Below the pieces are notes generated by a model, which was not told where the DNA came from, made no database searches, and saw only the letters and a program-made list of their open reading frames with translations. A stretch of 64,000 nucleotides of DNA from Moritella sp. JT01 (lineage in GTDB: Bacteria > Pseudomonadota > Gammaproteobacteria > Enterobacterales > Moritellaceae). Below, in pieces: positions 43,910 to 63,368 of the stretch. Both the position numbers and the translations under genes were made by a program. The stretch is from contig NZ_LOCN01000019.1 in the NCBI RefSeq assembly GCF_001574435.1, forward strand, positions 135,472 through 199,471. The letters are read 5' to 3'. Every line of letters begins with the position of its first letter. Position 1 is the first letter of the stretch.

Positions 43910-43924
43910 GAAATACTCCCTATT

Positions 43925-44520: not shown

Positions 44521-45000
44521 TTGAACGAAACCGCTGCGCGGCAGAGTAAACAAGCATGCATACTAACCAATAGCATCACGATTATGGTGGAGAATTATTG
44601 GAGTTACCAGTATCAACGATTCCAACTGAAACGATTTAATTTGCTTTATGAACAACACCTTAGCAATTTAAGATTGCAAGGTAAACGGCCTACGACCATT
44701 GATGGTTATTCTCGTGAAGTTCGATGCATTACAGCTTATTTGGATAAATATCCCGATGATTTAACTGCTGCTAACCTAAAAAATTACTTTAACAGTCTTA
44801 TCCAAGCCCATTCATGGTGCATGGTTAAAATCGACCGTAATGGCTTACAGTTTTCTATCACGATACCCTTGGAATAGTTCAACATCGCTAAGCGCCAACG
44901 AAAAGGCGAATTTGAGGATTGTCGAAAGGATTACAGCGAGTTTGATATTACGGATGCCCACTCGGAAATGAGAACATGTTGAGGCGAATACCCAGTTTGA
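44521..45000 (+). mobile_element. IS91-like element relic (left end with recombinase fragment)
   Basis: Begins TTGAACGAAACCGCTGCGCG exactly like the left ends at 53008, 55638 and 58968. The recombinase start codon is mutated (ATG to ATC near 44609), the gene is frameshifted after NGLQF and then deleted; GGATTACAGCGAG near 44940 is a surviving piece of the transposase gene. The right end is not recognisable. Confidence 0.75.
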
Positions 45001-48788: not shown

Positions 48789-48876
48789 CCTAGCGCTTAC
48801 ATAAGCGGAAAAATATAGTTGGCTATAAGCCAACTGTTGCGTGCCCGACTTGAAAACACTTATATTTACGTTGCCC
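48789..48876 (-). repeat. attC site (GTTGGCT family)
   Basis: Left arm CTTACATAAGCGG and the TAGTTGGCT/AGCCAACT inverted pair are shared with attC sites at 50869, 52911 and 55541. The LysE stop codon lies at the right end. Core boxes are less canonical than in the others. Confidence 0.6.
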
Positions 48877-51749: not shown

Positions 51750-51853
51750 GCCTAACGCCTGGCACAGTCGCAGACAAAATTGGCGGTTGTTTTGCCGGCG
51801 TTTTGTAAAAACAAGTGACACTTTTGGCTGTCGGTTGCTGCCACTTGTTATGC
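51750..51853 (-). repeat. attC site, canonical
   Basis: The clearest attC here: on the plus strand it starts GCCTAACGCCTGGCAC and ends GCCACTTGTTATGC, with long imperfectly paired arms (GGCGGTTGTTTTGCCGG in the middle). Gives GTTAGGC and GCATAAC boxes in gene orientation; the upstream GNAT stop codon is in GCATAAC. Confidence 0.9.
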
Positions 51854-52910: not shown

Positions 52911-53007
52911 GCGTATAACGCCCCATTAAGAGGTAAATGATAGTTGGCTAAAATAAGCGACGAAGGAGCAAATAGCCAACTGTTATTTGTCCTGCTTGAA
53001 TGGCTTG
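52911..53007 (-). repeat. attC site (GTTGGCT family), split by IS91-like copy A
   Basis: Plus strand starts GTATAACGCCCC, contains ATAGTTGGCT paired with AGCCAACTGTTAT, and is cut at GGCTTG. The missing core TTAGCC reappears at 54585 after the element. Confidence 0.85.
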
Positions 53008-53100
53008 TTGAACGAAGCCGCTACGCGGCGAAGTCATTGCCCCACCTGTCATACTTACCAATAACATCACCATAATGGGGATGACATTGGAGAATTCAGT

Positions 53101-53277
53101 ATGAACAGCTCACAACAACAACGCTTTAATGTTCTTTATGAACAACACCTTATCAATTTACGTTTGCAAGGTAAACAACCAACGACTATTGATACCTATT
53201 CTCGTGTAATTCGACAGATTAGTGCGTATTTTGATAACGCCACAGATAAATTAGCGCTAGATTGGAGTTTAAAATGA
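53101..53277 (+). CDS. In-frame deletion remnant of the IS-borne tyrosine recombinase
   Basis: 58 residues: the N-terminal 45 of the recombinase (MNSSQQQRFNVLYEQHL...ISAYFD) joined in frame to its last 12 ([11 protein letters not shown]). All catalytic residues are gone. Its stop overlaps the transposase ATG (ATGA), preserving translational coupling. The same deletion is present in copy C at 59061, so it predates their spread. Confidence 0.7.
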   Translation: MNSSQQQRFNVLYEQHLINLRLQGKQPTTIDTYSRVIRQISAYFDNATDKLALDWSLK

Positions 53278-54335
53278 GTACCTTCATTGATTTACTGCGC
53301 ATTCATCATCACGAGTTTGAACAACAATTTGGCAATCATCTTTCCCATGAAAGCCGTCGTGCAATCTACGCTATGCTCAGTTGTAAAACGAGCAACCGAG
53401 GTTGCTCGCAATGGTATTGTGGTCACTGCCAACATGATGACCGACTGCCGCTTTCTTGCGGCCATCGACATTGTCCGCAATGCCAGCAACGCACGACTTC
53501 TGATTGGCTTGAGCGCCAACAATCAAAGTTACTGCCCGTGCACTACTTTCTGGTCACGTTCACTTTGCCTTACGAGTTACGAGCGCTTGCGCGTTCGCAA
53601 CCCAAGCCACTCTATCAATCAATATTCTCCGTCGCTGCAAGTGTGTTGAAGGATTTTTCCAAACGTAGAAACGGCGGCGAAATAGGCTTCACCACCGTTT
53701 TGCATACTCACAGTAGGCAACGTAATTTACATCCCCACTTACACATTATAGTCGCCAGTGGGAGCTACAATAAAATGCGCAACCAATGGCATAAAGGTAA
53801 GAGTAACTATCTGTTTAACGCCTTTGCACTGGCTAAAGTCTGGCGAGCTAGAATGATTGATGTAATCAATCAGCACGCTGATTTATCTCTCGCGAACACT
53901 GGTACATTACCCACTAAATGGGTCGTTGATTGCCGCAAAGTAGGTTATGGATTGCCTGCAATAAAGTACCTGTCACATTATTTGTATCGAGGTGTGTTGC
54001 CTGATAAAGATATCATCGACATAGGTAATAATACTGTCACGTTCAAGTACAAAGACGGACAAACGCAAGTAACGAAAACCAGAGTCTTACCGACCTTGAA
54101 ATTTCTCTGGCTCATCTTGCAGCATGTCTTACCCAAAGGATTACAGCGAGTGCCGGATTATGGTTTTTTGCACGGTAATGCCAAGCGGCTACGAATGCGT
54201 ATTCAAGTCATATTGCTGCATCTGTTTAATTGGAGTATGCCTGAGCTCGTTGCAACGAGCACAGCAAAAGCAATCCGTATTTGTCCTTGCTGTCAGCATG
54301 AAATGAGGTGTGTTGGCATTACGCGAACGACCTAG
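53274..54335 (+). CDS. IS91-family transposase (copy A)
   Basis: A 353-residue HUH transposase. Residues about 37-70 form a zinc-binding domain ([24 protein letters not shown]), HPHLHII near 153 is the HUH metal motif, and [12 protein letters not shown] near 246 carries the catalytic tyrosine region of IS91-type rolling-circle transposases. ATG at 53274 with GGAG upstream. Intact and near-identical to copy B. Confidence 0.88.
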   Translation: MSTFIDLLRIHHHEFEQQFGNHLSHESRRAIYAMLSCKTSNRGCSQWYCGHCQHDDRLPLSCGHRHCPQCQQRTTSDWLERQQSKLLPVHYFLVTFTLPYELRALARSQPKPLYQSIFSVAASVLKDFSKRRNGGEIGFTTVLHTHSRQRNLHPHLHIIVASGSYNKMRNQWHKGKSNYLFNAFALAKVWRARMIDVINQHADLSLANTGTLPTKWVVDCRKVGYGLPAIKYLSHYLYRGVLPDKDIIDIGNNTVTFKYKDGQTQVTKTRVLPTLKFLWLILQHVLPKGLQRVPDYGFLHGNAKRLRMRIQVILLHLFNWSMPELVATSTAKAIRICPCCQHEMRCVGITRTT

Positions 54336-54584
54336 CCGAAAGGCGAACATAATAGGAATAATGGCATTAACATGACAGGTTGGAGATATTAAATTTATGG
54401 TACAACTAGCTAGTTAATTGATAAATAACAGGTCTGTTATTTATCTCAATTTCGCTCGTCTTGGGTTTAATTCCAAGACGAAGTGCCCACCAAGATCAAA
54501 CACGTAATTTACTATATAAAGAAGGGCTCGGGCTTGTTCAACACCCGAATAAGGTGTCGGCTACGCGACACCTATTCTTATATG

Positions 54585-54986
54585 TTAGCCATTTTTCATA
54601 GATTTAACAGCTGTAGCAACTACTTTTATTTTTCCACCAAAAGGCAAAGCTGCAGCTTCATAAATCGTCCTAGCGGGTCTTTTTCCTTCTGGAAACAGAT
54701 CCATATAGATATCATTGACGTCTTGGACTTCAGTTAAATCTGAGAATGCGATATCAACATATACTATTTCTGATTTATCAAACCCAGCTGCTTTTGCAGC
54801 GGAAAAGACGTTACCAAACGCCCGTATAGCCTCTTCTTTTATAGTGCCAACTACATATTCACCTTTAACATTTACTGATAATTGTCCACTTATAAAGCAC
54901 ATATTATTCACTACTACAGCATGGCTAATTGGATTTGACCATTGAGGCAAATCAGCTCCAGTTGTGATGAATTTTCTATCGTCCAA
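54585..54986 (-). CDS. RidA-family protein
   Basis: A 133-residue RidA/YjgF-like protein: VVVNNMCFISGQLSVNVKGEYVVG, DIAFSDLTEVQDVNDIYMDLFP and the C-terminal RTIYEAAALPFGGKIKVVATA hold the family residues including the ligand-binding arginine. RidA members hydrolyse reactive enamine/imine intermediates. A TTG start follows AAAGGGTATTATT. The stop codon TAA is in the attC box left beside the IS insertion. Confidence 0.87.
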   Translation of the reverse strand: MDDRKFITTGADLPQWSNPISHAVVVNNMCFISGQLSVNVKGEYVVGTIKEEAIRAFGNVFSAAKAAGFDKSEIVYVDIAFSDLTEVQDVNDIYMDLFPEGKRPARTIYEAAALPFGGKIKVVATAVKSMKNG

Positions 54987-55015
54987 AATAATACCCTTTA
55001 TTGATTAACACGAAT

Positions 55016-55113
55016 GGCTAACGCCAACCACAACTGCGCAGCGAAATGGCGGGCATTTTGGCACAAAATGCATGACAGTTCGCGGAGTCAGATTGCTGGT
55101 TTTTGTTATGTGC
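55016..55113 (-). repeat. attC site, canonical
   Basis: Plus strand starts GGCTAACGCCAACCACAAC and ends GCTGGTTTTTGTTATGTGC. Inner arms include GCGCAGCG/CGCGGAG-type pairing. Separates RidA and GNAT cassettes, and shows an undisturbed site for comparison with the IS-split ones. Confidence 0.88.
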
Positions 55114-55521
55114 TTAGTGCTCATTACCTGCATACACCCACATTGGCTCTGTTTTACCTGCACGCTCAAACCCCAATGCCTTGTAGAAATCAATGGCCTC
55201 ACCATCTGCGGTAAGCATTTGTTGGTGAAAACCTCCGTAAACAGTTTGCATTAATTCCATCATTTTACGACCAATGCCTTTCCCATGATACTGAGGATGA
55301 ACTAACATATGTGGGTAATAAACAACTAGATATCCATCTGAAATAGCATTGCCAATACCAACTAAGCTTCCGCCAACCCTTGCAGTAACCAAAGAATGTG
55401 AGTTACGCAAAGCAGGGATTAATAATTCGGGTTTCTTAGCAGAAGACCAAGAGTTAGCTTTATATAAGTCGATAACTTCTTTATCTTCAATCGAATCGTT
55501 TAATTCTATTTCTATGTTCAT
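55114..55521 (-). CDS. GNAT-family acetyltransferase
   Basis: A 135-residue compact GNAT: HMLVHPQYHGKGIGRKMMELM is motif A and ADGEAIDFYKALGFERAG motif B. Acceptor unknown. SD GAGAGCAGT; the stop lies 3 bp before the attC box. Confidence 0.87.
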   Translation of the reverse strand: MNIEIELNDSIEDKEVIDLYKANSWSSAKKPELLIPALRNSHSLVTARVGGSLVGIGNAISDGYLVVYYPHMLVHPQYHGKGIGRKMMELMQTVYGGFHQQMLTADGEAIDFYKALGFERAGKTEPMWVYAGNEH

Positions 55522-55540
55522 ACTGCTCTCGAATTCATTT

Positions 55541-55637
55541 GCACATAACGCCTAAATAAGCGGCAAATAGAGGTTGGCTAAAATTAGCGAAGAATGAGCG
55601 CAAGCCAACCTTTATGCGTCCGTTCTTGATTTATTTG
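55541..55637 (-). repeat. attC site (GTTGGCT family), split by IS91-like copy B
   Basis: Plus strand starts GCACATAACGCCTAAATAAG, contains AGGTTGGCT paired with AGCCAACCT, and is cut at ATTTG; the core TTATGC reappears at 57795. Confidence 0.85.
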
Positions 55638-55731
55638 TTGAACGAAGCCGCTGCGCGGCAGAGTAAACAAGCCAGCGTTCATACTAACCAATAGCATCAC
55701 CATTCGATGGTGCCTTACTGGAGTTATTAGT

Positions 55732-56487
55732 ATGAATCATTCACAACAGCAACGATTTAATTATCTTTATGAACAACACCTTACCAATTTAAGGCTACAA
55801 GGTAAACGGCCAGCGACCATTGATGCCTATTCTCGTGCAGTTCGACGCATTTCGGCTTATTTTGATAAGTCCCCAGACACATTAACTACTGCTGATTTAA
55901 AAGTTTATTTCAATAGCCTGATCCAGACCCACTCTTGGAGTACCGTTAAATTAGACCGTAACGGTTTACAGTTTTTCTACCGCTATATGCTCGACAAGCA
56001 GTGGGAATGGCTCAACATTGTCAAACCACCACAAGTTAAACGCCTGCCTGATATTTTAACTCCTACGCAAATAAGTAAAGTCATTAGCGGTACCAAGAAG
56101 CTACGCTACCAAGTATTCTTTCTCACGCTTTACAGCATGGGATTGCGGTTAAGCGAAGGTTTAAACCTGACCGTTCATGATATTGATAGCCAAACCATGC
56201 AAATACATATTCGTGATGCTAAAGGCGGCATTCAAAAAGCCATCAAGCAAGTTCTGCGTGATTGTCATATCAACAAACTCATCAGCCCCCATTCACTACG
56301 TCATTGCTTTGCTACTCATTTATTGGACAACGGCTTGGATTTGCGCTCTCTGCAAGTATTGCTCGGTCACGCCTCGTTAAATACGACCGCTAGATATACT
56401 CAATTAACCCAGCTCAAGCAGAAGGATACTTCAGTTGCCATTAACCAACTTGCTGACAAGTTAGCGCTAGATTGGAGTTTAAAATGA
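55732..56487 (+). CDS. IS-borne tyrosine recombinase (internal deletion)
   Basis: 251 residues, XerD-like. N-terminal SAM-like core-binding domain (about 8-95), then catalytic residues R139 (GLRLSEGL), H187 and R190 ([12 protein letters not shown]), H213 (LLGHAS) and Y222 (TARYTQL). The usual 40-50 residues between the catalytic lysine region (DAKGG) and HSLRH appear missing at about 164-168, probably an in-frame deletion between GG codons, so activity is doubtful. Stop overlaps the transposase start (ATGA). Confidence 0.85.
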
Positions 56488-57545
56488 GTACCTTCATTGA
56501 TTTACTGCGCATTCATCATGACGAGTTTGAACAACAATTTGGCAATCATCTTTCCCATCAAAGCCGTAGTGCAATCTACGCTATGCTCAGTTGTAAAACG
56601 AGTAACCGAGGTTGCTCGCAATGGTATTGTGGTCACTGCCAACATGATGACCGACTGCCGCTTTCTTGCGGCCATCGACATTGTCCGCAATGCCAGCAAC
56701 GCACGACTTCTGATTGGCTTGAGCGCCAACAATCAAAGTTACTGCCCGTGCACTACTTTCTGGTCACGTTCACTTTGCCTTACGAGTTACGAGCGCTTGC
56801 GCGTTCGCAACCCAAGCCACTCTATCAATCAATGTTCTCAGTCGCAGCAAGTGTGTTGAAGGACTTTTCCAAACGTAGAAACGGCGGTGAAATAGGCTTC
56901 ACCACCGTTTTGCATACTCACAGCCGACAACGTAACTTGCATCCTCACCTGCATATTATTGTCGCCAGTGGTAGTTACAATAAAATGCGTAACCAATGGC
57001 ATAAAGGAGACTGTAAATACCTGTTTAACGCCTTTGCACTGGCTAAAGTCTGGCGAGCTAGAATGATTGATGCAATCAATCAGCACGCTGATTTATCGCT
57101 AGCGAACATTGACACATTACCCTCTAAATGGGTCGTTGATTGCCGAAAAGTCGGTTACGGTCTTCCCGCCTTACAATATCTGTCACGCTATTTATATCGG
57201 GGCGTATTACCTGATAAAGATATCATCGATACAAGCAATAATACGGTGACATTCAACTATAAAGACGGACAAACTCAAGCAACGAAAACCAGAATTTCAC
57301 CGACGTTGCAATTTCTCTGGCTCATCTTGCAACATGTGCTTCCCAAAGGATTACAGCGAGTGCGGGATTATGGCTTTTTACACGGTAATGCCACACGGCT
57401 ACGAGTGCGCATTCAAACAATATTGCTGCATCTGTTCAATTGGAAAATGCCTGAACTCGTCGCAACGAGCACAGCAAAAGCAATCAGGATTTGTCCTTGC
57501 TGCCAGCATGAAATGAGGTGTGTTGGCATTACGCGAACGACCTAG
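56484..57545 (+). CDS. IS91-family transposase (copy B)
   Basis: A 353-residue HUH transposase: zinc-binding cysteines at about 37-70, HPHLHII near 153, and [12 protein letters not shown] near 246. Nearly identical to copy A and apparently intact, so it is the best candidate for the enzyme that mobilises all copies. Confidence 0.9.
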
Positions 57546-57833
57546 CCGAAAGGCGAACATAATAGGAATAATGGCATTAACATGACAGGTTGGAGATATT
57601 AAATTTATGGTACAACTAGCTAGTTAATTGATAAATAACAGGTCTGTTATTTATCTCAATTTCGCTCGTCTTGGGTTTAATTCCAAAACGAAGTGCCCAC
57701 CAAGATCAAACACGTAATTTACTATATAAAGAAGGGCTCGGGCTTGTTCAACACCCGAATAAGGTGTCGGCTACGCGACACCTATTCTTATTTGTTATGC
57801 AACGACTTAACACGCGCACATCTACATTTAAAT

Positions 57834-58235
57834 CTACCGACCTTCAACGAATGTTGGCAAATTAGGGTCTAGTTCGCACCAATTTGCCTTGTTGCCTGTA
57901 TATATTCGAGCGTCAATTTTTACGGGAATGTCTGCATCAAATGTTGATATTGCTAATTCTATTCGTTCGCTTGGTTCCCCTTTACAACGGAAGCCCAAAC
58001 TTGAACCACAATTTAAGCAGAATGTACGAGTTGTACCATTTTCAGCTACATACTCTTTTAATAACTCTTCACCCAAAAGCCATTTTAACCCTTTAACTGT
58101 GACTAGAGTTCCATATGCTGCACCGTGGAACTTTCGACACATTGAGCAATGACAGTTTGCAGCTTTGTCACTGAAACTCTCAACCGAAAAAAGCACACTT
58201 CCACATAAGCAAGAACCATTAAAACATGAACTCAT
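57834..58235 (-). CDS. GFA/CENP-V family zinc protein (copy 4 of 4)
   Basis: A 133-residue Mss4-like zinc protein: GSCLCGSVLFSVESF, CHCSMCRKFHGAAYGTLVTV and CLNCGSSLGFRCKG. Flanked by an IS-split attC on one side and a canonical attC on the other, so it is a genuine cassette. Good GGAG before the start. Confidence 0.88.
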   Translation of the reverse strand: MSSCFNGSCLCGSVLFSVESFSDKAANCHCSMCRKFHGAAYGTLVTVKGLKWLLGEELLKEYVAENGTTRTFCLNCGSSLGFRCKGEPSERIELAISTFDADIPVKIDARIYTGNKANWCELDPNLPTFVEGR

Positions 58236-58254
58236 CCCGAGTTAATCTCCTGTT

Positions 58255-58355
58255 GCATAACGCCCACCTAACCAGCGGCGTGCAGGCGTAGTTTTTTGCG
58301 TATATTTGCTAAAAATGTGACAGATTTAGCCGTCTGGTTTAGGTTATTGTTATTC
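58255..58355 (-). repeat. attC site, canonical
   Basis: Plus strand starts GCATAACGCCCACCTAACCAG and ends CTGGTTTAGGTTATTGTTATTC; outer arms CCTAACCAG/CTGGTTTAGG pair well. The GNAT gene to its right takes its stop from GAATAAC. Confidence 0.88.
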
Positions 58356-58847
58356 GTTTGTAAGTATAATTTGCCAATACCCGACATCAACCCAAGAATT
58401 AAACTTACGCCCTACTTCTTTAAAGTGAGCAACTTTACTAAAACCAAATGACTCATGAAGCTTTACACTGGCTTTATTTGGCAAAGCTATCGCAGCGACT
58501 ACAACATGGACACCAGATGATGATAATGTCGATAACATTGCTCTATATAGTTCAGACCCATAACCTTTTCCTGATTCGGCATGATCAAGATAAACCGTTA
58601 TTTCAGTAGTTTTTTTATATGCTGATCGTTCAGCCCATTTTGCGGCATAAGCGTAACCGACAACGTCACAGTTAGAATTTTCTATCACTAACCAAGGATA
58701 TTCCTTAGTGTAATATTTAATTCGCTGAAAAATAATAGCCTCAGAAACCGGCTCTTCTTCAAAAGTTACGACCGTATGTTCAATATAATAATTGTATATA
58801 TCACAAATGGCTTTCGCATCACTTTTCAGGCATTCTCGAATATTCAT
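58350..58847 (-). CDS. GNAT acetyltransferase, phosphinothricin-acetyltransferase-like
   Basis: A 165-residue GNAT: DIYNYYIEHTVVTFEEEPVSE and ITVYLDHAESGKGYGSELYRAM (motif A) are typical of the Pat/YncA group, HESFGFSKVAHFKEVGRKFNSWVDVGYWQ is the usual C-terminus. The ATG at 58847 follows AGGTGG. Related in type, not closely in sequence, to the gene at 39129. Confidence 0.87.
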   Translation of the reverse strand: MNIRECLKSDAKAICDIYNYYIEHTVVTFEEEPVSEAIIFQRIKYYTKEYPWLVIENSNCDVVGYAYAAKWAERSAYKKTTEITVYLDHAESGKGYGSELYRAMLSTLSSSGVHVVVAAIALPNKASVKLHESFGFSKVAHFKEVGRKFNSWVDVGYWQIILTNE

Positions 58848-58858
58848 AAACCACCTAC

Positions 58859-58967
58859 GCATAACGCCTTTGTAACAGGCTCATTTTTGTGAAACAGTTT
58901 GTGTAATACTGACGCGCAGCGGCAACACAAAATGCGTAGCTAAAATTTGTCCTCGTTGACAAACTTG
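58859..58967 (-). repeat. attC site, split by IS91-like copy C
   Basis: Plus strand starts GCATAACGCCTTTGTAACAGG and is cut at GACAAACTTG; the core box TTATAC or TTATAT reappears after the element near 60554. Confidence 0.78.
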
Positions 58968-59060
58968 TTGAACGAAGCCGCTGCGCGGCGGAGTCATTTC
59001 CCGACCTGTCATACTTACCAATAACATCACCATAATGGGGATGAAATTGGAGAATTCAGT

Positions 59061-59237
59061 ATGAACAACTCACAACAACAACGCTTTAATGTTCTTTATG
59101 AACAACACCTTATCAATTTACGTTTGCAAGGTAAACAACCAGCGACTATTGATACCTATTCTCGTGTAATTCGACAGATTAGTGCGTATTTTGATAACGC
59201 CACAGATAAATTAACGCTTGATTGGAGTTTGAAATGA
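59061..59237 (+). CDS. In-frame deletion remnant of the IS-borne tyrosine recombinase (copy C)
   Basis: 58 codons, MNNSQQQRFNVLYEQHL ... ISAYFDNATDKLTLDWSLK, with the same deletion junction as copy A and the same ATGA overlap with the transposase start. No catalytic residues remain. Confidence 0.65.
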   Translation: MNNSQQQRFNVLYEQHLINLRLQGKQPATIDTYSRVIRQISAYFDNATDKLTLDWSLK

Positions 59238-60296
59238 GCACCTTCATTGACTTGCTTCGTCAGCATCATGACGAGTTTGAATGGCAATTTGGTAATCAGC
59301 TTTCTCATGACAGTCGCCGCGCAATCTATGCCATGCTCAGCTGTAAAACGGGGCAGCAAGGTCGATCACAATGGTATTGTTCTCATTGCCAACATGATGA
59401 ACGACTGCCACTGTCCTATGGGCATCGACATTGTCCGCAATGCCAACAGCGCACCACTTCTGATTGGCTAATGCGCCAACAAAGTAAGTTACTGCCCGTG
59501 CATTACTTTATGGTGACCTTCACTCTACCTTATGAACTACGGATATTGGCACGCTCGCAACCCAAAGCACTTTATCAATCCATGTTCTCCGTTGCGGCAT
59601 CGCTGTTGAAAGACTTTGCGAAACGTAAACACGGTGGTGAAATAGGCTTTACCACCGTTTTACATACTCACAGCCGACAACGTAACTTACATCCTCACCT
59701 GCATATTATTGCTGTCAGTGGTAGTTACAATAAAGTGCGAAATCAATGGCACAAAGGAGACTGTAAATACCTGTTTAATGCCTTTGCACTGGCCAAAGTC
59801 TGGCGAGCTAGAATGCTCGAAGCAATTAATCACCACGCTGATTTATCGCTGGCTAACACCGACACATTACCCACTAAATGTGGTCGTTGATTGCCGAAAA
59901 ATTGGTTACGGTCTGCCTGCATTGCAATACCTGTCACGCTATTTATATCGAGGTGTTTTACCCGACAAAGACATCATCGACACAAGTAATAATAACGTGA
60001 CATTCAAATATAAAGACGGGCAAACTCAAGCAACGAAAACCAGAGCCTTACCGACCTTGAAATTTCTCTGGCTCATCTTGCAGCATGTCTTACCCAAAGG
60101 ATTACAGCGAGTGCGGGATTATGGTTTTTTGCACGGTAATGCCAAGCGGCTACGAATGCGTATTCAAGTCATATTGCTGCATCTGTTTAATTGGAGTATG
60201 CCTGAGCTCGTTGCAACTAGCACAGCAAAAGCAATCCGTATTTGTCCTTGCTGTCAGCATGAAATTAGGTGTGTTGGCATTACGCGAACGACCTAG
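59234..60296 (+). pseudogene. IS91-family transposase (copy C), frameshifted
   Basis: Same protein as copies A and B until near 59880, where AAATGTGGTCG replaces AAATGGGTCG: one extra base. Frame one then stops at TLPTKCGR; frame two continues with [27 protein letters not shown] to the normal end. The HUH motif and the tyrosine region are now in separate frames, so the enzyme is inactive unless frameshifting occurs. Confidence 0.88.
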
Positions 60297-60571
60297 CCGA
60301 AAGGCGAACATAATAGGAATAATGGCATTAACATTAGAACTTGGAGAGACTCAATTTATGGTAAACACTGGCTAGTTAATTGATAAATAACAAGTCTGTT
60401 ATTTATCTCAATTTCGCTCGTCTTGGATTTAACGCAAAGACGTAGTACCCACTAAGATCAAACACGTAATTTACTATATAAAGAAGGGCTTGGGCTTGCT
60501 CAACACTCGAATAGGTGTCGGCTGCGCGACACCTATTTTTATATTTCATATGTTATATGTTATACACGACA

Positions 60572-61069: not shown

Positions 61070-61260
61070 TATTTATCCCTTATTTATAGTCCATTCACCC
61101 TCATGTTCTAGGAGTTCAGAATATTAATATTGTCTAACTGCGCCAACAGCACAATTACGTTTGAACAACAATAATTACCATAGCACCATAAAATAAGGAG
61201 ATTTCATTAAAAAAGCATGGGATATAGTAAAACCACCCGACGACAATTTTCCCATATCGA
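61070..61260. other. Junction between first cassette and group II intron
   Basis: No gene. GTCTAACTGCGCC at 61132 gives GTTAGAC on the minus strand, a possible cassette-boundary or attI-type core box. No integrase gene is near. Confidence 0.35.
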
Positions 61261-63368
61261 GTCGGGTGAGGCTTATACCTCATCCCTCTCACAGAACCGT
61301 ACGTACGGACCTCGTATACGGCTCCTGTAATTTACTATTCCTTAGTAAAAAGGAGCGAGAACTCCTGTTTTAACTTCGTCTATTGAATACAGACTTATCA
61401 TTTTAAACCGCTGATTAGACATCGCATAAGTCGCTAACGGACTTGCACTATTTCACCATGAGCTCATTTTGATGAACCGAAATGGCGGTTTATACTTTAA
61501 TTGTTTCAGACGCCTGTGCAATTTGCTCGACTTCTTCCACTATCTCAGTTGTACAGCTCGCAGCCTGCGTCTAACCCAAGGAGCTAGCTTTTTGAGTATG
61601 GTCGTTATGTTGGCTATTTTGAAGTAATTTACAGAACCCCTCAGCACTGGATTGAGCCGTTTTAACACTGTTGCTAAATTAACGCCTCCATTGCGTTTGG
61701 TCAGTTCCTTTACCTTCACTTTAAATGCGCTAAGTTTCTTTTCTTGGAGCTTGGTATAACTTGTGTAAATTTCTACACCCAAGAGTTTTATACCTGTACC
61801 GCTATGTGCGATATGGGTTTTACGCTCATTCACTTTAAGTTTCAGTGTCACTTCTAAGATATGGCTTGCTGCTTTTAACGCGTTATCTGCGCCCTTCTTT
61901 GAGGTGCAGAATATCAAAATATCATCCGCATATCGCACTATTCTGTGCTGACGCTTTATCATTTCTTGATCAAACTCATCTAAGTATATGTTGGCAAGCA
62001 ACGGACTAATAACGCCGCCTTGTGGACTACCAATCACACTTTCTTGCCAATGAGCCCCAACCATGACCCCACTTTTTAAAAATTGTCTAATCAAACTTAA
62101 GATACTGCCGTCCACTATCCGTTTTAGCACGAACTTGATAATCAAGTCGTGGTCAAGCATATCGAAGCATTTAGACAGATCCATATCAACAACGTGTTGC
62201 TTACTATACTTTCGTATAAACAGCGTGGCTTTGCTAATAGCTTGGTGACAACTTCGCCCAACCCGATATCCATAACTCGATGGATGAAGGTTTGGGTCAA
62301 ATATGGGTGTCATTATATTCGCTAAGCATTGTTGAACAATTCGGTCTCGAACTGTGGGGATCCCTAATAACCTCATGCCGCCATCGTCTTTCGCGATCTC
62401 GACACGTTTTACAGGGCACGCTTGATAGCGCTTTTCTTGCAGTTCGAGTAACAATCGTTTGAGCTCTACTTCCAAGTTTTGTGTGAAATCACGAATGCTC
62501 TGCCCATCAATACCAGCAGCTCCACCGTTTTTCTCACTTGTTTGTATGCCACGTAGAGCGCTTGCAGTGATAACATGCGTCCATAAAGGCTATAGTGTAC
62601 TCTCAAATTATTATCTCACATCACCCGCTACTGATTTTGTTTATATTGGTTAGGTTTGTTTCGTTGTCGCGTTAAGTGTTCTAGCAGGTGTAAACCCCTT
62701 TATTTGCAATATGCTTAATCGCCTTTTATGTCTCTAATGAAGAGAAACAATTACTCCCCGTGTTCAGTTCTATTTACAGCTTTGGTATCACCCTTTGCCA
62801 TTGATAGAGACTCTACCTTATTTGGTAATTTGTGAACCCATTATAAATTACATCAATTTTACGTGATTTATAAATCACTTCCCCCCTTCGCAACCAATCT
62901 GTGTTTTTGACTCAAATTGACTCTATCAGACATATTGCTGATAGTCGGCTTGGTTTATCCTCCACACCATTACTGGCTTTCACAGGCCTAGCCTTACTCA
63001 CTACTACAGGTTCATCTGCCACCTCACATCGACGTTAAATCTTGAGTTTCATCTTGAATTTAAGCCACTTACTCATATTAAGTTTAGATGCCAGGCTTCC
63101 CCAGTTATTGCACTGACGCCCTGTTAGATATGCCCCCCTCAAACACAGCATTGGTCTGACTAAGTATTGGGCTTCGCGCTATTTTGGACGCTTACCCACC
63201 AATGCCGCCGAAACAGGTTACGGTTAGTTGTGTACACCTAACTTCCTATGGCTTCCTTCAGACTCCACCATTAGCCAGTGACTCCCTTGCCATTCGGATA
63301 ATCTTCCCCTTAGTCAGGGTGAGTTCACTTTCTTGCAAGTGAACGGGGTTGCCAGCTTTGCTGAACAC
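61261..63368 (-). mobile_element. Group II intron, decayed
   Basis: On the minus strand GAGCCGTATACG...GTACGTACGGTTC (61294-61324) is a group II domain V hairpin, followed by a domain VI-like GAGGTATAAGCCTC. The RT gene lies upstream and about 0.8 kb of structured non-coding sequence (62590-63360) upstream of that fits domains I-IV. The 5' end is placed just after the gyrA terminator at about 63368 (GTGTTC). Insertion right behind a terminator hairpin is the habit of class IIC introns; class not proven. Confidence 0.72.
61342..62589 (-). pseudogene. Group II intron reverse transcriptase/maturase, with two in-frame stops
   Basis: In frame: NGGAAGIDG, IPTVRDRIVQQ, SSYGYRVGRSCHQA, the catalytic YADD, LGVEIY, then the maturase region LNPVLRGSVNYFK. 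A TAG at 61540-61542 stands where Gln is expected (VQLR*WKKSSKLHRRLKQL) and a TGA at 61453-61455 where Arg is expected (KMSSW*NSASPLATYAM); the frame then continues to a TAA at 61342. Both stops are C-to-T type changes. No start codon with a good SD is seen at the N-terminus. Confidence 0.85.

Follow-up and report, generated by a model that had tools for sequence, protein, structure and literature searches.

The insertion sequences (IS) of the IS91 family (IS91, IS801 and IS1294) have a transposase with a Y2_Tnp and a zinc-binding domain, as well as a hairpin at the right end, and their target tetranucleotide (of the GAAC/CAAG kind) is expected to adjoin the right (ori) end. The left end of IS801 is given as GAAC, the family is described with a GC-rich left stem-loop, and the reported IS801 targets are the loose tetranucleotides GAAC, GGAC, CAAG and CGAC (PMC3189936). 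ISCR elements are IS91-like and linked to class 1 integrons (PMC8876359), and the IS91-like element ISShvi3 of Shewanella was reported in 2022 adjacent to an attC site, in a paper that also states that no IS was found interrupting an attC (PMC9229058). The IS1111-attC group (ISKpn4 and ISPst6) also uses attC, but with an unrelated enzyme, a DEDD transposase guided by seekRNA. Group IIC-attC introns enter the attC bottom strand at R'' within TTGT/T, in the orientation opposite to the cassettes (PMC7923331). The present study concerns three elements, A, B and C, and a relic, D, in a 64-kb stretch of Moritella sp. JT01 (contig NZ_LOCN01000019.1; the whole of this stretch is called the window), in which the cassette genes around the elements lie on the minus strand. 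A, B and C are IS91-family insertion sequences inside attC sites of a Moritella cassette array, and the observation generalises strongly beyond the three copies.

The 21-mer with which the elements start occurs exactly four times in the window (at 44521, 53008, 55638 and 58968; mean in shuffled sequence, 0.01); as the earlier note had recorded, it is immediately preceded by CTTG or TTTG, the latter in B and the former in the other three. Element A (53008–54584, on the plus strand like all features of A–D) begins with TTGAAC, ends with TTATATG and retains an open tnpA (53274–54335, 93% identical to that of B), with int mostly deleted; its left-end stem-loop, GCCGC-N3-GCGGC, lies at 53017–53029 and its right end at 54530–54584. 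Element B (55638–57794) has an open tnpA at 56484–57545 and an internally deleted int at 55732–56487 (251 amino acids), which belongs to the tyrosine recombinases (Phage_int_SAM_4 and Phage_integrase); its right end, with GTTCAAC and the hairpin, occupies 57740–57794. Element C (58968–60559) has int mostly deleted and tnpA in two frames, split near 59885, and its right end is either 60552 or 60559, the junction being ambiguous by 7 nucleotides (nt). The TnpA of B carries Y2_Tnp (HUH; PF04986, 139.7 bits) and Zn_Tnp_IS91 (PF14319, 96.4 bits) and scores 355.8 bits on NF033538, for which the cut-off is 125; the GAAC left end with a GC-rich stem-loop and a covarying right-end hairpin are further IS91-family features present here. 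Membership of the IS1111-attC group was rejected, with no DEDD transposase and only Y2_Tnp and Zn_Tnp_IS91 shown by Pfam, and so was ISCR membership, the one ISCR model hit of B's TnpA reaching 25.9 bits against a cut-off of 925.

The attC sites were called with two covariance models, a main one made from 25 uninterrupted attCs of the same loci, none hosting this lineage (91% of cells paired), and a smaller one made from 6 long attCs. The seeds were chosen for perfect arm pairing, so that their covariation arises partly by selection, and one seed (L189) adjoins a sister-clade miniature; the window's attCs at 51750, 52337 and 58255 served as seeds, and the three element-bearing ones did not. 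Model-called attCs of the window, all on the plus strand, start at 43924, 50866, 51750 (uninterrupted, 51750–51853), 52337, 52913, 55016, 55543, 58255 and 58859, with one weak partial match at 48802 (E 0.14). The matches for A (52913–53013, E 4e-21), B (55543–55643, E 5e-16) and C (58859–58973, E 1.6e-9) terminate exactly at the insertion points. The split sites themselves cover 52913–53007, 55543–55637 and 58859–58967, and the rest of the box, which the earlier note had recorded beyond each element, is indeed there as TTAGCC (54585–54590), TTATGC (57795–57800) and TTATAC (60560–60565). Because the cassette genes are on the minus strand, the attC bottom strand corresponds to the plus strand of the window, and what is split is the gene-proximal R'' box, not R' at the cassette boundary; the former assignment to the core box R' is therefore corrected. 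The position at an attC right end, given in the earlier note for all four copies, holds for three of them. At D (44521–44870, a left end with an int fragment and an uncertain right limit) neither model calls an attC, the template score described below is 4.5, and only TTGAATGCCTTG, which resembles a 3' half, remains. The observation is thus partly confirmed, being real for A, B and C and unproven for D.

When the elements were excised in silico, the rejoined sites of A, B and C formed attC structures, with R'/R'' and L'/L'' paired and an extra base on L''. The fold z values were −3.2 for A (2 of 200 shuffles as low), −2.5 for B (4 of 200) and −1.5 for C (15 of 200), whereas two attCs of the array without an insertion gave −2.4 and −2.0; the unjoined left flanks folded less well (−2.7, −1.7 and −1.2).

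A base-precise case was provided by the E. coli plasmid RCS41_p (NZ_LT985243; IncC, typed conjugative), in which a copy with both genes annotated (int, 296 amino acids; tnpA, 361) lies between qacEdelta1 and aadA1 of a class 1 integron. In NZ_CP023143, which holds the uninterrupted attC(aadA1), the 60 nt immediately before the right flank agree with the left flank of the IS at 57 positions, including every one of the last 56. No target letters were lost, and the one ambiguity is a GTT found at both ends, which may belong to the element or to the target, so that in this one case with an uninterrupted record there is no ordinary target duplication, the ambiguous GTT aside. The element was found at full length in 1 of 72,556 plasmid records and without near match in 5,426 E. 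coli genomes; a 97%-identical TnpA is encoded in a genome of family f5 (G381, locus L188). Environmental elements of this lineage can hence reach class 1 integrons, in this case on a plasmid typed as conjugative.

Relatives were collected by a tnpA search of the species genomes, which gave 54 loci, and by a left-end pattern census, which took in part of the listed sites. Among 11 Moritella genomes, tnpA matched in 9 and the left-end pattern, at up to 3 mismatches, in 11, those of G001, G006 and G007 only at 3 mismatches and possibly by chance. Across 394 genomes of the order, the pattern was present in at least 56 genomes and at least 14 of 115 genera, both end types together. For plasmids, 3563 records matched and six were read. 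Flanks were scored on an attC template (R' box, L'/L'' arms with one extra base on the L'' side, and G^TT, the caret marking the junction) with a threshold of 7.5, which 1.35% of 12,000 random TTG positions reach; the covariance models were run on 35 sub-threshold confirmed sites and L089 (36 sources), on 19 sister-clade loci and on 8 more.

The template score was at least 7.5 for 83 of the 137 distinct left-end sites of the GAACGAAG type. After 34 sites without int or tnp similarity had been set aside as short contig ends or chance 20-mers (15 of them still reaching 7.5), 81 of the remaining 103 adjoined a recognisable attC, 68 by the template and 13 by the covariance models alone (E 0.05 or less); the 68 of 103 correspond to a binomial p of about 1e-100 against the template's false-positive rate. 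With both ends in hand, 51 of 60 sites were in attC (A and B included, C not; 2 of the 60 are outside the 103). The right flank resumed with TTA in 57 of these 60, the TT being demanded by the end finder, and a minus-strand open reading frame ended within 45 nt in 48, against 503 of 3789 random positions. The check suggested in the earlier note, the fraction of other copies in attC, thus came out in favour of targeting. Orientation was equally consistent, since 88 of the 110 sites with element evidence scored higher as bottom-strand attC, with 18 ties and 4 higher as top-strand attC, the last all scoring 5 or less; as bottom strand, 65 of the 110 reached 8, and the 2 that reached 8 as top strand did not exceed their bottom-strand score. 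Entry at the R'' end of the attC bottom strand is precise and uniform in orientation, and it is restricted to this lineage.

The insertion point reads YTTG^TTRRRY, with the element opposite to the cassette genes, which on the attC top strand is RYYYAA^CAAG. Host sites ended in CTTG (44), TTTG (8) or ATTG (4) among the 60, and uninterrupted attC-like sites of the same loci did likewise (24, 11 and 5 of 48), some of the 48 being chance finds, as a looser scan gave 104 hits on reversed sequence versus 134. A strict RYYYAAC box found almost nothing in the attC scan, many boxes here reading like GTATAAC. For CTTG versus the rest, the difference between host and uninterrupted sites was small (p = 0.016), and CTTG as a preference of the IS, or as a special target, was rejected as mostly attC background. 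With respect to the element, TTA flanks the right end (57 of 60) and CTTG, CAAG on the other strand, adjoins the left end (44 of 60).

The attC-targeting TnpAs are set apart from the rest of the tree by a branch with 100/98 support and make up 46 of its 59 rows; the group was defined by identity to B of at least 41%, so this one-sidedness is partly expected, and the tree carries a warning of long outgroup branches. The left end conserves GAACGAAGCCGC-N-GCGGC; the right end conserves GGGCTTGTTCAAC or a near variant of it, a hairpin in which changes compensate each other, and TTATTTG^TT. In an alignment of 22 chosen distinct right ends, 94% of the hairpin cells were paired, a value reached by none of 500 shuffles.

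These data are best explained, with fairly high probability, by a specialised IS91-family lineage for which attC is the preferred landing place. The HUH (Y2) transposase would recognise the folded single-stranded attC bottom strand, whose layout is an L-box stem with an extra base, about 4 nt, and then G^TT, and which in this model is read as a stem-loop followed by TTG^TT. Since the site is similar to the right end of the element, where a covarying hairpin with an extra A precedes TTTG^TT, we infer that TnpA reads the folded bottom-strand attC; it would cut at G^TT and attach a single-stranded copy, duplicating little or nothing, the tyrosine recombinase presumably being dispensable in cis and occasional sites outside attC probably still using G^TT. 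With R'' as the entry point, the element comes to separate a cassette gene from its attC hairpin and points against the genes.

Several points weigh against this explanation. The identity of the cut and moved strand, and recognition through the hairpin instead of the letters, are suppositions of the model. Right-end pairs with changes on both sides number 6 of 7, a value reached by 81 of 500 shuffles, and the register of that hairpin was fixed after a first try two columns off. The rejoined site of C, with 15 of 200 shuffles folding as well, is not significant alone, and a search of the 11 Moritella genomes gave none of the cassette sites of A, B and C in uninterrupted form. The template was tuned on attCs of these same genomes. 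There are 22 of 103 sites without a recognised attC; among them are half-attCs by eye (L015, L146 and L245, for example), a site beside a run of N (L144) and one near a contig end (L136), and L090 and L011, with both ends, lie plainly outside attC and still show G^TT. Arrays tolerate insertions, so that survival could inflate the attC fraction, and Int could act in trans.

A rival idea is that Int, not TnpA, chooses attC, since it is related to the Xer/IntI recombinases and would cut at an IntI-like G^TT. We consider this unlikely. Full-length int spacing (965–1010 bp from left end to tnp) is seen in 47 of 62 tnp-bearing copies, and two Int proteins of the lineage score 154–170 bits on the IntI model; these scores are below its cut-off of 265, and between the two matched parts the proteins fall about 40 residues short of the profile, for which reasons Int was rejected as an integron integrase. 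Moreover, A, C and a copy in another Moritella (L005:3245) share one int deletion at three different attCs in two genomes, hence Int is not needed in cis, and in the window's genome the IntI-model search showed no int of this lineage other than the internally deleted one of B. A different proposal, that the elements are gene cassettes inserted by an integron integrase, has a very small probability in our estimation. It would account for the R'-like start G^TTGAAC, for the attC-like hairpin at the right end and for an end-to-end junction of the attC-targeting lineage that folds like a small attC (z −5.5), and the sister clade described below is indeed located, in cassette orientation, at presumed attI and at R'. 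An IntI-made cassette, however, would sit at R' or attI in gene orientation, and the attC-targeting clade is at R'', opposite to the genes; at none of the 110 sites did a score of 8 or more on the top-strand (R') template exceed the bottom-strand score; the left-end hairpin and the right-end letters are conserved, which IntI would presumably not need; and no integron integrase above the IntI cut-off was found in the window's genome, although the contig carries a cassette array. For A, B and C the cassette model was rejected, as gene direction, the position of the extra base and the E. coli case all place the insertion at R''.

Cassette arrays are largely neutral, so the elements could instead insert at any NTTG^TTA, without targeting, and be enriched in arrays where insertions are harmless; the report of CAAG (CTTG) among IS801 targets would fit (PMC3189936). 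This, too, is highly improbable. The window holds 86 TTGTTA hexamers, of which 6 lie at the ends of uninterrupted model-called attCs, and the hexamer alone therefore does not explain why three of four copies are at attC (p 0.004). The 81 of 103 sites across genomes argue in the same direction, as do the sister-clade elements, with 0 of 19 at R'' by covariance model, including L234, which reaches 7.5 on the template but lies at R'.

With respect to the described systems, IS801 is reported to use loose tetranucleotides, in contrast to the structured site preferred by this lineage. Group IIC-attC introns use nearly the same spot, but as retroelements with a ribozyme, which makes this a convergent use of the site. 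ISShvi3, compared here by description only, is one case, presented as yielding a new cassette structure and not as an attC insertion. The earlier statement that IS1111-type elements use attC stands, while its companion, that no IS91-type example was known, has to be modified for this one element already noted next to attC. No report of a lineage-wide attC habit of IS91 elements was found in the literature searched, mostly outside subscription papers and ISfinder; of PMC9229058, PMC7923331, PMC11023631, PMC9345347, PMC9330008 and PMC8876359, only the first bears on the matter. With this lineage, integron attC sites would be read by a third kind of mobile DNA, enzymatically unrelated to the other two, and the folded single-stranded attC would be a natural substrate for single-strand HUH transposases; it becomes possible to test whether single-strand mobile elements in general use attC hairpins as landing pads. 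By parting a gene from its attC, insertion at R'' could freeze cassettes.

The sister clade has left ends of the form GAACTAAG...GCGGAG and TnpAs 32–36% identical to that of B. The left ends at L265–L278, L189, L224, L226, L231 and L234 read GAACTAAGCCGC..GCGGAG, and at presumed attI and attC R' the elements are in cassette orientation. Among 21 sister-clade sites (the final 40 nt of L217 and L230 being identical), 9 are at a presumed attI, as judged from left flanks whose similarity to sequence upstream of an intI gene runs as far as the junction; for example, the flank of L277 resembles this region of G181, those of L267–L270 resemble that of G005, and L266 has its own intI 332 nt away. At one further site, L265, an intI carrying an in-frame stop is 363 nt away; five (L189, L224, L226, L231 and L234) adjoin attC at R' on the top strand, and the remaining six were assigned to neither. 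No intI was found in 12 sister-clade upstream regions, 2.8–3.6 kb long; L267–L271, L275, L277 and L278 show attI/promoter-like sequence with no intI in the 3.4–3.6 kb upstream of the element. The elements are 2.1–2.4 kb long, and seven gene-less miniatures of 296–301 bp have the same two ends (L189, L191, L221, L222, L224, L226 and L234; four at attC R', three at unassigned flanks). The sister clade accordingly occupies the places where cassettes sit, and its placement by IntI is putative.

Both clades start with G^TTGAAC, and ahead of the terminal hairpin they have its complement, either exact or altered at a single letter (most sister-clade elements have GTCCAAC, one letter off the complement of their own start), so that a circular form would hold an attC-like site. 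We tentatively raise the possibility, which we regard as rather doubtful, that the whole IS91-like superclade has ends imitating integron recombination sites and may shuttle between transposase- and integrase-driven movement. The end-to-end junction of one sister-clade miniature (z −1.0) is not attC-like, which slightly lowers the odds, and the other two junctions, a second one of the sister clade and that of the attC-targeting lineage, give −5.5 each. If true, this idea would bear on how attC-like folded sites arose.

Some additional features were seen near these elements. One genome of family f11 carries six near-identical attC-targeting copies in three short stretches (L172, G140:C1:2362111-2373600; L173; L174), each beside its own attC. 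The left ends at L053:3108, L170:502 and L168:502 are next to attCs that seem, by eye, shortened (5' half only, or hairpin missing), possibly by deletions caused by the element. Finally, a group II intron (Rfam RF02001 and RF00029) lies beside the same cassette array on the minus strand of the window at 61256–63281, with a reverse transcriptase with a maturase domain at 61540–62475.

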